Origin: Lysobacter auxotrophicus
Lineage (GTDB): Bacteria; Pseudomonadota; Gammaproteobacteria; Xanthomonadales; Xanthomonadaceae
Direction: 5' to 3'
Length of the DNA: 64,000 nucleotides
Assembly: GCF_027924565.1 (NCBI RefSeq)
Contig: NZ_AP027041.1
Location: 558,001 to 622,000 of the forward strand
The translations under genes were made by a program, and so were the position numbers. Under the pieces are notes generated by a model. That model made no database searches and had not been told where the DNA came from. It saw only the letters and a list, made by a program, of their open reading frames with translations. This document shows, one piece after another, positions 31,535 to 34,541 of the stretch (position 1 is the stretch's first letter; every line of letters begins with the position of its first letter).

Positions 31535-31557
31535 CGTTGAAGCGACAAGGAAAGGCC

Positions 31558-32943
31558 TTGAAGCGAGCATTCTCTAGTTTTAGGCGCCCCAGCGAAGAGC
31601 AGTTCGATGAACTGTGGAGGAAGGGCGTGCTAGTGGTCGACACAAACATCCTCCTTCAGCTGTATCGAGTTCCTGAGGCCACCCGAAAGGAAATTCTCGA
31701 CATTCTTAGGGCGCTAGGTGATCGGTTGTGGGTTCCTCATCACGTAGGGCTCGAGTTCGAACGAAATCGCCTTGGCGTCATCGCCTCCGCGAGGAAACAA
31801 GCTGACGAGATTCTCCAGGACTTTGCTGGCCTTGAAGGGCTATCAGACAAGATCCGCGCGCTTGAGCTGGATAAGCGCGCGATCGGCGTTGAAGAGGAGC
31901 CGCTACTGATCGCACTTCGTGCGGCGCGTGAGAAGGCCTGCGAAGTCATGCAAACAGTGCGCGAAAGCCACGTCCAGCTCTCTCATGATGATCCGATTCG
32001 AGACGCCATTCATGACCTCTACACGGGGCGCATTGGCGACGCCCCTGTGGACCAAGGAGCTGTTGACGATATGGAGCGCGACGGGCAGCGCCGCTTCGAC
32101 AATCTCGTTCCTCCGGGCTTTCGCGATGCGGGCAAGGACGCGGCTGCGTATGTCGCTAAGGGGCTGCGTTATCAAAGAAGGTTTGGCGATTACGTTGTCT
32201 GGCGACAAACTGTTGATTACGTGAAGGCTCATGGCGTTAGCCATCTGATGTACGCGACTTTAGACAACAAAGAGGACTGGTGGCACAGGCTTCAGGGGCA
32301 AACAGTCGGTCCGTTGCCTGAGCTAGTTCACGAGATGCAGTCTGCAGGGGTCGAAGTATTCTGGATGTACAACCTGCAGCAGCTTGTGGAGCAAAGTAAA
32401 CGCATGGGTGTCGCGGCGGTATCAGACACGACCTTGCAAGAAGTGCAAGAAGTTCAGATGCGTGCAGACCTGATGCCGGAAGGCGAAGGTGCTGACGAGT
32501 ATGTAAAACTCGAACGGCCGCTGTCGGAGTACTCGGAGCGGGAAGCAGCCGTTGCAGAGTGGCTCAAGCAACGAAATATCATCGCGCAGCCGTCTGGGCT
32601 GCTTGCGCCCGATCTAGTAGCCAAGACAGCCGTCGGGAGCGCCGGATACGAGGTGATCTCGTTACGTAGGCCGCAAGATGCGCTTGCTCATTTCGAAGGG
32701 CTCATCCAGGCGCAAGATTCGATCAAGGCGGAGGCCGATGTTAGCGAACTGCACGTCTTCTTCGTCGATGGCAACTACGCAACCAATGCTTGGGCTTTCT
32801 CCGAAAGACTGAGCGATCTAGCCACGAAGTACGTGAGGAATGGCCGCATCGCGTCGATTACCGTCGGCTATCTCCACAAAGGAAGACTGATCCTGAGCGA
32901 CTATGCGAGGCACCCTGATTCAAGACTTCATGGGGCCCGCTAA
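31558..32943 (+). CDS. PIN_8 (DUF4935-type) nuclease-like protein
   Basis: A 461-residue protein. Residues 1-285 match the PIN_8 family: the LW...GVLVVDTNILLQLYR start with acidic Asp28, HHVGLEFERNR (Glu66, Glu68), FGDYVVW (Asp211) and LDNKEDWW (Asp236/Asp240) followed by GQTVGPLPELVHEM. These are the acidic metal ligands of PIN RNases, so an intact nuclease is likely. Residues about 320-461 form an extra alpha/beta domain (PDLVAKTAVGSAGYEVISLR, ELHVFFVDGNYATNAW) I cannot name. No ATG fits. TTG 31558 follows AAGGAAAGG and starts the family pattern; TTG 31537 is the alternative. GC is clearly lower than in neighbours, so it was probably acquired. A defence role is inferred only. Confidence 0.75.
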   Translation: MKRAFSSFRRPSEEQFDELWRKGVLVVDTNILLQLYRVPEATRKEILDILRALGDRLWVPHHVGLEFERNRLGVIASARKQADEILQDFAGLEGLSDKIRALELDKRAIGVEEEPLLIALRAAREKACEVMQTVRESHVQLSHDDPIRDAIHDLYTGRIGDAPVDQGAVDDMERDGQRRFDNLVPPGFRDAGKDAAAYVAKGLRYQRRFGDYVVWRQTVDYVKAHGVSHLMYATLDNKEDWWHRLQGQTVGPLPELVHEMQSAGVEVFWMYNLQQLVEQSKRMGVAAVSDTTLQEVQEVQMRADLMPEGEGADEYVKLERPLSEYSEREAAVAEWLKQRNIIAQPSGLLAPDLVAKTAVGSAGYEVISLRRPQDALAHFEGLIQAQDSIKAEADVSELHVFFVDGNYATNAWAFSERLSDLATKYVRNGRIASITVGYLHKGRLILSDYARHPDSRLHGAR

Positions 32944-33270: not shown

Positions 33271-33368
33271 GCTTTGGCATTCCCTGACAACGCGACGCGG
33301 CATTTCCCGTGCGACTGTTGATCCTCGCCTGTCCACGATGATGGCCGGTGATTCGGCCGGGCGTTGGA

Positions 33369-33872
33369 ATGGTGCGGTATCGGCGGAACCGCGTTTGCGG
33401 CGGGAGGTACTTCTTCACGGTAACGCTTCGCGATCGACGAAGCGATCTGCTGGTCCGACACGTGAACGCGCTGCGAGCGTCATGGCGTGACGCGCACGCT
33501 CGCGTCGCACACGACGTGCTCGCGGCCGTGGTGATGCCGGACCACCTGCATGCCGTCATCCGCATGGACGACGGCGCCGACGATTACCCGCGGCTCTGGC
33601 AAGAGATCAAGAAGGGCTTCTCGCGACGTTTGCCGCGCGCGGGCCCTTCGCCATGGCAGGCGCGCTTCTGGGAACACACGATCCGCAACGAGGCGGATCT
33701 GCGCGCGCATGTGGATTACGTGCACTTCAATCCGGTGAAACACGGCTACGCGTCGAGCGTCGTCGACTGGCCGTTCTCGTCGTTTCACCGGTATGTGCGC
33801 AATGGTGCTCTGCCGCTCGATTGGGGTGGGGATGTTGCAACGCCTGGCATCAAGGTTGCGGGCGAGCCGTAG
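33369..33872 (+). mobile_element. rayT: REP-associated tyrosine transposase (RAYT)
   Basis: A 167-residue single-domain transposase of the Y1/HUH class related to IS200/IS605 TnpA. It has the family start VRYRRNRVCGGRYFFTVTLR, the metal-binding HUH motif His59-Leu-His61 in VVMPDHLHAVIRM, and the catalytic Tyr, probably Tyr118, in HVDYVHFNPVKHGY. WQARFWEHTIRN and DWPFSSFHRYV are also typical RAYT pieces. It is flanked by REP palindromes of the same sequence family on both sides, the hallmark of a resident REP/RAYT pair. Known RAYTs cut REP sequences in vitro and are domesticated single-copy genes. I used ATG 33369 over GTG 33348, because the family begins at this point. All catalytic residues look intact. 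Confidence 0.92.
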
Positions 33873-33879
33873 GCGTTTG

Positions 33880-33964
33880 TAGCCCGGGTAAGCGGAGCGC
33901 ACCCGGGGGCTTTTGTTGATGCGCCGGAAAGGTTGCCCCGGGTGCGCTTCGCTTACCCGGGCTA
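33880..33964. repeat. Inverted REP pair downstream of the RAYT gene
   Basis: TAGCCCGGGTAAGCGGAGCG plus CACCCGGGG (33880-33908) and its inverse (33936-33964) lie seven bases after the transposase stop, separated by 27 bases. With the upstream copies they bracket the transposase gene. Confidence 0.92.
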
Positions 33965-34061
33965 CAAGAGCGTCGCGATTTGCGACGTGGCTACCGCTCG
34001 CGAGTTCTTCGCATTGATGTGCGCTTACGCGGTGGCGAACACTCTCCCTCGGAGCTTAAGA

Positions 34062-34116
34062 ACTCCTGGAAGCGGCACCCACCTCCGTCAAATCGGTGGG
34101 TTTTTTGTGCCTGGAG
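34062..34116 (+). terminator. Intrinsic terminator with nested stems; possible end of a small RNA
   Basis: CCCACC (34078-34083) pairs with GGTGGG (34095-34100), directly followed by six T (34101-34106). Outer stems GGCAC/GTGCC (34074-34078 with 34107-34111) and CTCC/GGAG extend it. No gene ends just upstream, so it may close a short RNA starting after the REP pair, or act as an upstream attenuator for the gene at 34281. Confidence 0.6.
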
Positions 34117-34133
34117 AAGTGCCGGCGCAAACT

Positions 34134-34261
34134 CCGACGTAGTCGCTTTGCGTCGGGAAGGGGCAGCAATACAACACCCGCAAGGGGAAAGCTGCCCGGC
34201 CGTCCTTTCAGCGGTTTCTTAACTTCCCGACACCCTTGCGGCCAACCCGCAAGGCTTTCCC
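34134..34261 (+). ncRNA. Candidate two-state structured RNA in front of the gene at 34281
   Basis: Several perfect helices can be drawn: CCGACG/CGTCGG (34134-34139 with 34151-34156); TCGGGAAG/CTTCCCGA (34153-34160 with 34223-34230), which excludes the first; GGGCAGC/GCTGCCC (34161-34167 with 34191-34197) enclosing CCC-GCAA-GGG; and CCTTGCGG/CCGCAAGG (34234-34241 with 34247-34254). An identical CCGCAAGG at 34178-34185 is an alternative partner for the last helix. The ribosome binding site AAAGGAG lies 14 bases beyond. The layout is like a cis-regulatory RNA; no known class is recognised. Confidence 0.45.
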
Positions 34262-34280
34262 GTTGTCAAAGGAGCGACTC

Positions 34281-34541
34281 ATGCGAAAGCACCGCCGTCC
34301 GGCGCCATCCCGATCCACCTGTTACGTCATCAGCGATTCCGCGCGCGACACCGTCACGCGCACGCGCGATCAGTTGCTGCTCCTCGCGTGCCTGAGCGCC
34401 GCGCGCATCCGCCACGACGCTGCCGAACTGGAACTGTCCCCCGACGCGCTGGTCACCATTTTCCAGCGCCTGTGCAACGACCTGGACCACGCGTTGCGCG
34501 ACATGAAGATCGGGCTGCCGGCAGCGGGACAACCGGCGTAG
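34281..34541 (+). CDS. Small protein, possibly XAC0095 family
   Basis: An 86-residue protein with a basic start (MRKHRRPAPSRS) and a helical body (YVISDSARDTVTRTRDQLLL, LACLSAARIRHDA, LVTIFQRLCNDLDHALRDM). The spacing of the aromatic start, the RDQL-LLA motif and the C-terminal helix recalls the XAC0095-type small proteins that are numerous in Xanthomonadaceae and have no known function; this is from memory and not certain. The start ATG has a strong ribosome binding site (AAAGGAG, seven bases away). The 240 bases upstream contain a terminator and a complex RNA structure, so expression may be controlled at RNA level. The 250 bases after it hold nothing I recognise. Confidence 0.6.
   Translation: MRKHRRPAPSRSTCYVISDSARDTVTRTRDQLLLLACLSAARIRHDAAELELSPDALVTIFQRLCNDLDHALRDMKIGLPAAGQPA

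Follow-up and report, generated by a model that had tools for sequence, protein, structure and literature searches.

The sRNA-Xcc1 locus and its surroundings

A structured RNA was detected upstream of a small protein gene in the window (the whole stretch of 64,000 nucleotides of Lysobacter auxotrophicus DNA that was analysed): positions 34152-34239 of the forward strand, on which all elements of the unit lie, matched sRNA-Xcc1 (Rfam RF02221) over model positions 1-87, with 73.9 bits against a gathering score of 53. The first-pass annotation had recognised no known class in this RNA, and was wrong in this respect given the RF02221 match. A gathering search of the whole window with Rfam returned sRNA-Xcc1 only, and no known riboswitch or thermometer class; two more copies of sRNA-Xcc1 were found in the window's own genome. 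Between 33300 and 34900, no match was obtained with C4 (RF01695; E up to 1) or isrK, and the permissive search of the same stretch (E up to 1) gave seven further sub-cut-off matches at 33837-33980, around the palindrome described below.

The strings from which two competing folds had been proposed were all in place: CCGACG at 34134, CGTCGG at 34151, TCGGGAAG at 34153, CTTCCCGA at 34223, CCTTGCGG at 34234, CCGCAAGG at both 34178 and 34247, and AAAGGAG at 34268. When 34134-34283 was folded, the free energy was -62.5 kcal/mol; dinucleotide shuffles averaged -47.4 ± 4.0 kcal/mol (n = 200; z = -3.8), and one of them was as stable. The proposed structured RNA, located 5' of a small xanthomonad protein gene and containing mutually exclusive helices, was supported, and the unit exceeded the interval first annotated, starting near 34051.

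We infer the following order of the unit: a promoter, the a1 hairpin and b1, an intrinsic terminator, the antisense sRNA-Xcc1, and the gene. The promoter is a candidate (TTGATG ... GAACAC; 34014-34043) at the start of the unit; a consensus scan for sigma-70 promoters found none at the window locus, and TTGAC was present within the upstream 142 nt in 54 of the 59 xanthomonad homologues of the pattern set (among the matches listed). The a1 hairpin (34051-34066) has a GGAG/CTCC stem, paired in the 55 aligned xanthomonad loci except for a single cell, and the loop TTAAGAA (34056-34062). The b1 site CTGGAAG (34066-34072) has its partner in the hairpin-2 loop, CTTTCAG (34205-34211), with six Watson-Crick pairs and one G-U as read from the sequence; relative to the register of the alignment, this match is offset by one base, and it is weaker. 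The terminator (34077-34106) consists of ACCCACC (34077-34083), GGTGGGT (34095-34101), and a T-run to 34106, and 96.3% of the cells of its helix were paired in the 55 loci; a terminator scan selected an overlapping stem (34084-34100) with the T-run in common, and shuffled sequences averaged 1.0 such sites. Most loci of the pattern set had this upstream layout, namely, an a1-loop hairpin, b1, and then an intrinsic terminator. Among the matches listed, a run of at least five T was found upstream of 57/59 xanthomonad, 36/42 other, and 64/79 viral loci, and was less general in the family set obtained with the covariance model (48/81).

The P0 hairpin, CCGACG/CGTCGG (34134-34156), competes for 34152-34156 with P1, the GTCGGGAAG/CTTCCCGAC helix (34152-34160/34223-34231) of sRNA-Xcc1. 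Within P1, the RNA contains the stem of hairpin 1 (34161-34167/34191-34197) enclosing a conserved core of 22 nt, AATACAACACCCGCAAGGGGAA (34168-34189), hairpin 2 with the antisense loop b' (34203-34211), and the antisense junction a' TTCTTAA (34216-34222), which pairs with a1; a 3' tail follows. A 3' hairpin, CCTTGCGG/CCGCAAGG (34234-34254), is located between the RNA and the ribosome binding site, with the Shine-Dalgarno sequence AAAGGAG at 34268-34274.

The gene (34281-34541) encodes an 86-residue protein of the XAC0095 family (NCBIfam NF047335; 52.1 bits, cut-off 34). An AlphaFold model of XAC0095 (pLDDT 76.8) had two helices, and neither a PDB nor a viral structure matched this fold at E 0.001; the window's protein matched no PHROG family (E up to 1) and no PADLOC family (E up to 0.1). 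In X. citri, XAC0095 appears among genes whose mutants showed altered virulence (PMC2653504).

Upstream, 31537-32943 encodes a 468-residue protein with a PIN_8 domain, for which no PADLOC family was found at E up to 0.1, and 33348-33968 contains the gene of a REP-associated tyrosine transposase (NF047646, 156 bits), followed by a long inverted repeat at 33876-33968, which we take to be REP-like. The RNA as a part of this REP/RAYT palindrome was rejected as a candidate, the palindrome being located at 33876-33968 and the RNA having its own genic context. The alternative raised earlier, a mobile element with palindromes, was likewise not supported: the RNA stands before particular genes, and the palindrome of the transposase is separate.

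Family range and neighbouring genes

The 22-base core pattern was found in at least 119 stretches of one-per-species genomes and at least 120 of viral contigs. The matches listed contained 243 motif instances and 182 distinct RNAs with enough flank, 156 of these with a called start; RNAs without a called start were left out of start-based tests, and the grouping into xanthomonads and others was assigned from record titles. The covariance model detected sRNA-Xcc1 in 43 of the 149 genomes sampled from the window's family (at most ten copies per genome) and in 20 of the 274 sampled from the window's class, 12 of the latter being above the cut-off. A plasmid search with 34040-34300 as a query returned one Xanthomonas record.

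Among the matches listed, 149 of 155 downstream proteins were scanned together with that of the window (150 in total). XAC0095 was matched by 48 and SymE by one of these 150; matches to antirepressor domains, counts of which can overlap within one protein, were to P22_AR_C (19), Bro-N (14), pRha (12), AntA (12), KilA-N (11), ORF6N (11), and P22_AR_N (9). Many of the genes downstream of the RNA outside xanthomonads were antirepressors (P22_AR, Bro-N, AntA, KilA-N, ORF6N, and Rha); the gene annotated as antirepressor ("ant") of Escherichia phage Rac-SA53 starts 5 nt beyond the matched stretch. Nine genomes from the family to which the window belongs, picked mostly for multiple copies, contained 55 sRNA-Xcc1 copies, 42 of which preceded an XAC0095 gene; of the 48 XAC0095 genes above the cut-off, 42 followed an sRNA-Xcc1 RNA. 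In the window's own genome, the association was 3/3 in both directions. Since 42/55 copies precede XAC0095 genes in these nine genomes, the xanthomonad version looks domesticated.

One prophage stretch (L166, 843-1672) contained isrK, C4, and then, approximately 560 nt on, an sRNA-Xcc1 unit; two antisense systems of equal layout are found together in this locus. In six viral loci (L126, L139, L156, L196, L199, and L229), the core was present with a different hairpin 2 (GCATGCGG), and the upstream a1/b1 site was not clear by eye; they are possibly a distinct subclass. One genus of the family (genomes G075 and G146; L313-L325) had many low-scoring copies, with an upstream T-run in 1 of the 13 fetched and a1-like matches present.

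Complementarity, covariation, and competing states

For each locus, the length of the longest exact match complementary to the hairpin-2 loop, or to the junction that follows it, was compared with that in shuffled sequences. In the 44 distinct xanthomonad types among the matches listed, the upstream complement was 7.84 nt for the loop (shuffled, 5.07) and 7.45 nt for the junction (shuffled, 5.76), each reached by 0 of 200 shuffles. Loop complementarity to the upstream region was also observed, among the matches listed, in other genomes (6.52 vs 5.18; n = 42) and viral contigs (6.85 vs 5.13; n = 71), and the control segments (the core and the 5' arm of hairpin 1) did not exceed their shuffled maxima. 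In xanthomonads, 40 of the 41 parsed a1/junction combinations were exact reverse complements, 3 of the 44 types, including the window, being unparsed in this count. The result was reproduced in 70 further family loci, the RNAs of which were distinct from the earlier set (8.19 vs 6.07; shuffled maximum 6.44, 0/500), and in 80 covariance-model loci plus the window (8.20 vs 6.12), although ten of these 80 overlap earlier RNAs.

The downstream site differed between the groups. In viral loci with a called start (n = 57, among the matches listed), the complement of the loop in the leader before the start was 6.96 nt, compared with 4.62 on average and at most 4.98 in shuffles. A loop complement of at least 6 nt within 25 nt of the start was found in 81 of 98 non-xanthomonad loci among the matches listed (shuffled maximum, 16); the corresponding match to the Shine-Dalgarno region in xanthomonads was found in 1 of 58, which is the window itself, and this equals chance (shuffled mean, 1.0). 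Without start calls, the values among the matches listed were 89/121 (shuffled mean 18.8, maximum 28) and 6/59 (shuffled mean 8.4), respectively; in 14 of the 58 xanthomonad loci, the start was called at a TTG or GTG codon, possibly in error. In the window, TCCTTT in the loop is an exact 6-nt complement of AAAGGA in the Shine-Dalgarno sequence. Since downstream complementarity in the 70 further loci, albeit small, was above all 500 shuffles (6.20 vs 5.80, maximum 6.16), these loci may retain a residual downstream target.

No signal of code insulation between paralogues was found: 0 of 237 within-genome pairs shared both codes, with 0.57 expected, and b alone was shared by 5 (2.1 expected). The window RNA was predicted to pair about equally well with the a1b1 of copy 2 (-23.0 kcal/mol) and with its own (-22.0 kcal/mol); copies 2 and 3 favoured their own a1b1 (-36.9 and -30.3 kcal/mol).

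Covariation was analysed in 55 xanthomonad loci among the matches listed, aligned by MAFFT without structure (L041, in which no upstream match was seen, was left out). Twelve of the 15 pairs formed by a1 and b1 had double compensatory changes: 6/7 between a1 and the junction (34216-34222; 93.5% of cells paired) and 6/8 between b1 and the loop (95.2% paired). One b1 pair was CG in 25 loci, AU in 18, GC in 5, UA in 5, and other in 1. P1 was paired in 100% of cells, with two covarying pairs. The covariation score of the whole structure was 0.165, compared with 0.049 in shuffles, which ignore relatedness (0/500). The structure was paired in 96.9% of cells and its slid versions in 35-54%, a comparison that favours the unslid structure because this was defined on a single row (L012). 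Compensatory changes and conservation beside the gene, the absence of which had been named in advance as evidence against a regulatory RNA, were both present. The covariation fits pairing in cis and in trans alike, and cannot tell between them.

A read-through transcript could adopt two states. In state A, a1/b1 would pair in cis with hairpin 2, with the junction, and with the 3' strand of P1, the 5' strand of which would be held by P0; in state B, the a1 hairpin and a C4-like fold would form, and an RNA of ~88 nt would be cut from it. The strongest competing partners, 34056-34072 with 34205-34222, are located partly beyond the interval first annotated. Of the two competitions proposed there, that between P0 and P1 stood, since both helices are kept in the 55 loci, whereas that involving CCTTGCGG had no family-wide support. 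P0 was paired in 95.8% of cells with 7 double-change cells, and one column common to P0 and P1 changed together with both partners (A-U-A to G-C-G); the evidence for P0 was thinner, at least as many doubly changed pairs being obtained in 38 of 500 shuffles. P0 was a xanthomonad feature: it was not above shuffled sequences in other genomes, and was slightly above in viral contigs, in which a control segment was also slightly up. In constrained folds, state A was below state B in 54 of the 55 loci, by a mean of 13.7 kcal/mol, as structure A is in the IsrK locus (PMC4825925). The window was the sole exception under the register of the alignment (state A, -75.7; state B, -76.5), and its unconstrained minimum, -81.3, was A-like. 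P1 is followed by ACC in the window; RCC, which is expected of an RNase P substrate, was found in 11 of the 55 loci.

CCTTGCGG had also been noted to have two identical partners. One of these recurred, the 3' hairpin: the longest stem after the RNA averaged 6.65 bp in 81 loci (shuffled maximum, 4.52), and was at least 6 bp in 50 of them. On the other hand, pairing with the core (34178) gave no family-wide signal, complementarity between the core and the downstream region not exceeding the shuffled maximum across loci. In three genomes of the window's genus, the core-to-tail complement was at least 6 in 10 of 14 loci and 4 in 4 of 14, as counted without a shuffle control. Pairing of the core with the leader, exact over 8 nt in the window, was also not above the shuffled maximum across loci and was rejected as incidental. 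The core of hairpin 1 (34168-34189) was strongly conserved, and no antisense partner above shuffled sequences was found for it. The antisense model does not account for this conserved core, which is the most promising lead to something new.

These observations bear on a purely cis-acting attenuator or riboswitch, in which pairing stays inside a single transcript and the state is selected by a ligand or protein bound to the hairpin-1 core. Reciprocal two-state helices and conservation of the 22-nt core across distant hosts are in line with such an element; however, the precedents C4 and IsrK act in trans (PMC5320573, PMC4825925), and the second match, at the Shine-Dalgarno sequence in phages, is more readily reconciled with an antisense RNA than with a riboswitch, and we regard this explanation as rather unlikely. 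No known aptamer class reached its gathering score in the window. The riboswitches and thermometers to which the RNA was originally likened are a poorer analogue. Because the loops are variable, covarying, and self-complementary, an antisense RNA of the C4/IsrK kind is preferred.

Likeness to C4 and IsrK and proposed mechanism

C4 (RF01695) and sRNA-Xcc1 have a common topology: an outer stem and two hairpins, with b' in the second loop and a' in the junction. Their layouts and numbers of model positions in Rfam are equal, and they share no clan. The upstream a1/b1 target of C4 constitutes a separate Rfam family, c4-a1b1 (RF03163), and a1 and b1 were also found in the window. The ribosome-binding-site match and downstream antirepressor of C4 from P1/P7 were also found in the phage relatives of sRNA-Xcc1. 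sRNA-Xcc1 differed from C4 in its larger hairpin 1 with the conserved 22-nt core; furthermore, the Shine-Dalgarno target was not kept by xanthomonads as a group, and C4 controls an antirepressor whereas the window gene is XAC0095. The unit in the window works like C4/IsrK by anatomy, and is not a C4 member by model.

C4 is cut by RNase P, its b' covers the ribosome site, and its a' gives specificity (PMC5320573). C4-type RNAs of phages have multiplied in the A. baumannii chromosome (PMC5320573), similar to sRNA-Xcc1; however, these Group 1 sRNAs are C4 by structure search, whereas sRNA-Xcc1 is another Rfam family and is found with one protein family. IsrK is a short terminated RNA accompanied by a read-through RNA that forms two structures from the same complementary stretches, and has been likened to the P4 CI RNA, with its upstream and downstream sites (PMC4825925). 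The window unit resembles IsrK-STnc1160 of Gifsy-1 (PMC4825925) in its predicted short upstream RNA and alternative structures A and B, but the Gifsy-1 target is the translation of orf45-anrP, not XAC0095. The P4 CI RNA with seqA/seqC, comparable by description, is an antisense RNA that is cut out of a leader and pairs with sites both upstream and downstream (PMC4825925); xanthomonads as a group keep the upstream site only.

By comparison of the loci, the predicted RNA was shown to be a three-way junction in which b' and a' are kept complementary to its own a1/b1 and P0 and P1 compete. In our view, the locus is probably an antisense-RNA unit that regulates itself in the manner of phage C4/IsrK and has been domesticated before a chromosomal XAC0095 gene. 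Most transcripts would end at the terminator and give a short, IsrK-like a1b1 RNA, and read-through transcripts would adopt states A and B. The free RNA cut from state B would pair with a1/b1 of new transcripts, the short a1b1 RNA could pair with the antisense part of the read-through RNA, and the balance of a1b1 and antisense RNA would set the amount of XAC0095 mRNA. From the precedents of P4 CI and C4, the 88-nt RNA is expected to be a negative autoregulator, this direction of regulation being drawn by analogy. Since xanthomonads as a group lack the Shine-Dalgarno target of phages, it would act mainly on read-through; a translational part is possible in the window because of the 6-nt match between b' and the Shine-Dalgarno sequence.

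The published view is that of an independent trans-acting sRNA on distant mRNAs, to which the neighbouring gene is incidental. A 2011 paper reportedly calls sRNA-Xcc1 trans-acting in its title, and is said to deal with HrpG/HrpX control. Such an sRNA would agree with the RNA of 88 nt with mapped ends in X. campestris (PMC2996969), and with the consensus scan finding no promoter of its own only poorly; the match of a'/b' to the upstream site of their own locus and the position of 42/55 copies before XAC0095 genes in nine genomes also speak against it, making it unlikely. A decayed phage relic, in which the leader has no present function, is very improbable: a Shine-Dalgarno match at chance in xanthomonads (1/58), RCC in 11/55 loci, and a T-run in 48/81 loci of the family set would suit it, but the compensatory changes at a1/b1 in the 55 and 70 further loci point to continuing selection.

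RF02221, in the descriptions available for it, is an sRNA of 88 nt, and these contain neither the upstream a1/b1-terminator element nor a C4-like logic. sRNA-Xcc1 has been located upstream of symE in integron cassettes (PMC12444791), and has been listed side by side with C4 in Xylella, with no link drawn in the text available (PMC12189769); C4 and IsrK, but not sRNA-Xcc1, are covered in a review of phage sRNAs (PMC12197685). In the literature searched, in which subscription papers are sparsely represented, no statement of sRNA-Xcc1 as C4-like was found. What is new here is what the sRNA-Xcc1 family is: the comparison of sequences indicates a C4-like antisense design with an upstream a1/b1.

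A wider proposal, which we make tentatively as a plausible rather than a probable one, is that sRNA-Xcc1 is a second widespread phage-immunity antisense superfamily at antirepressor loci of alpha- and gamma/betaproteobacteria. In xanthomonads, a device that controlled the translation of antirepressors would have become a locus-coded switch of transcription before XAC0095 genes, present as many copies per genome, each with its own self-complementary code, and the conserved hairpin core would be a sensor or a protein-binding handle. Should the antisense reading hold, an sRNA that has been studied as a virulence-linked regulator acting in trans would instead form the antisense portion of a self-regulating switch derived from a phage, and different partners would have to be looked for. 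It would also help explain the presence of sRNA-Xcc1 in prophages, integrons, and chromosomes, and would show how an RNA of phage immunity, once separated from its phage, can be put to use again as several coded copies per genome.
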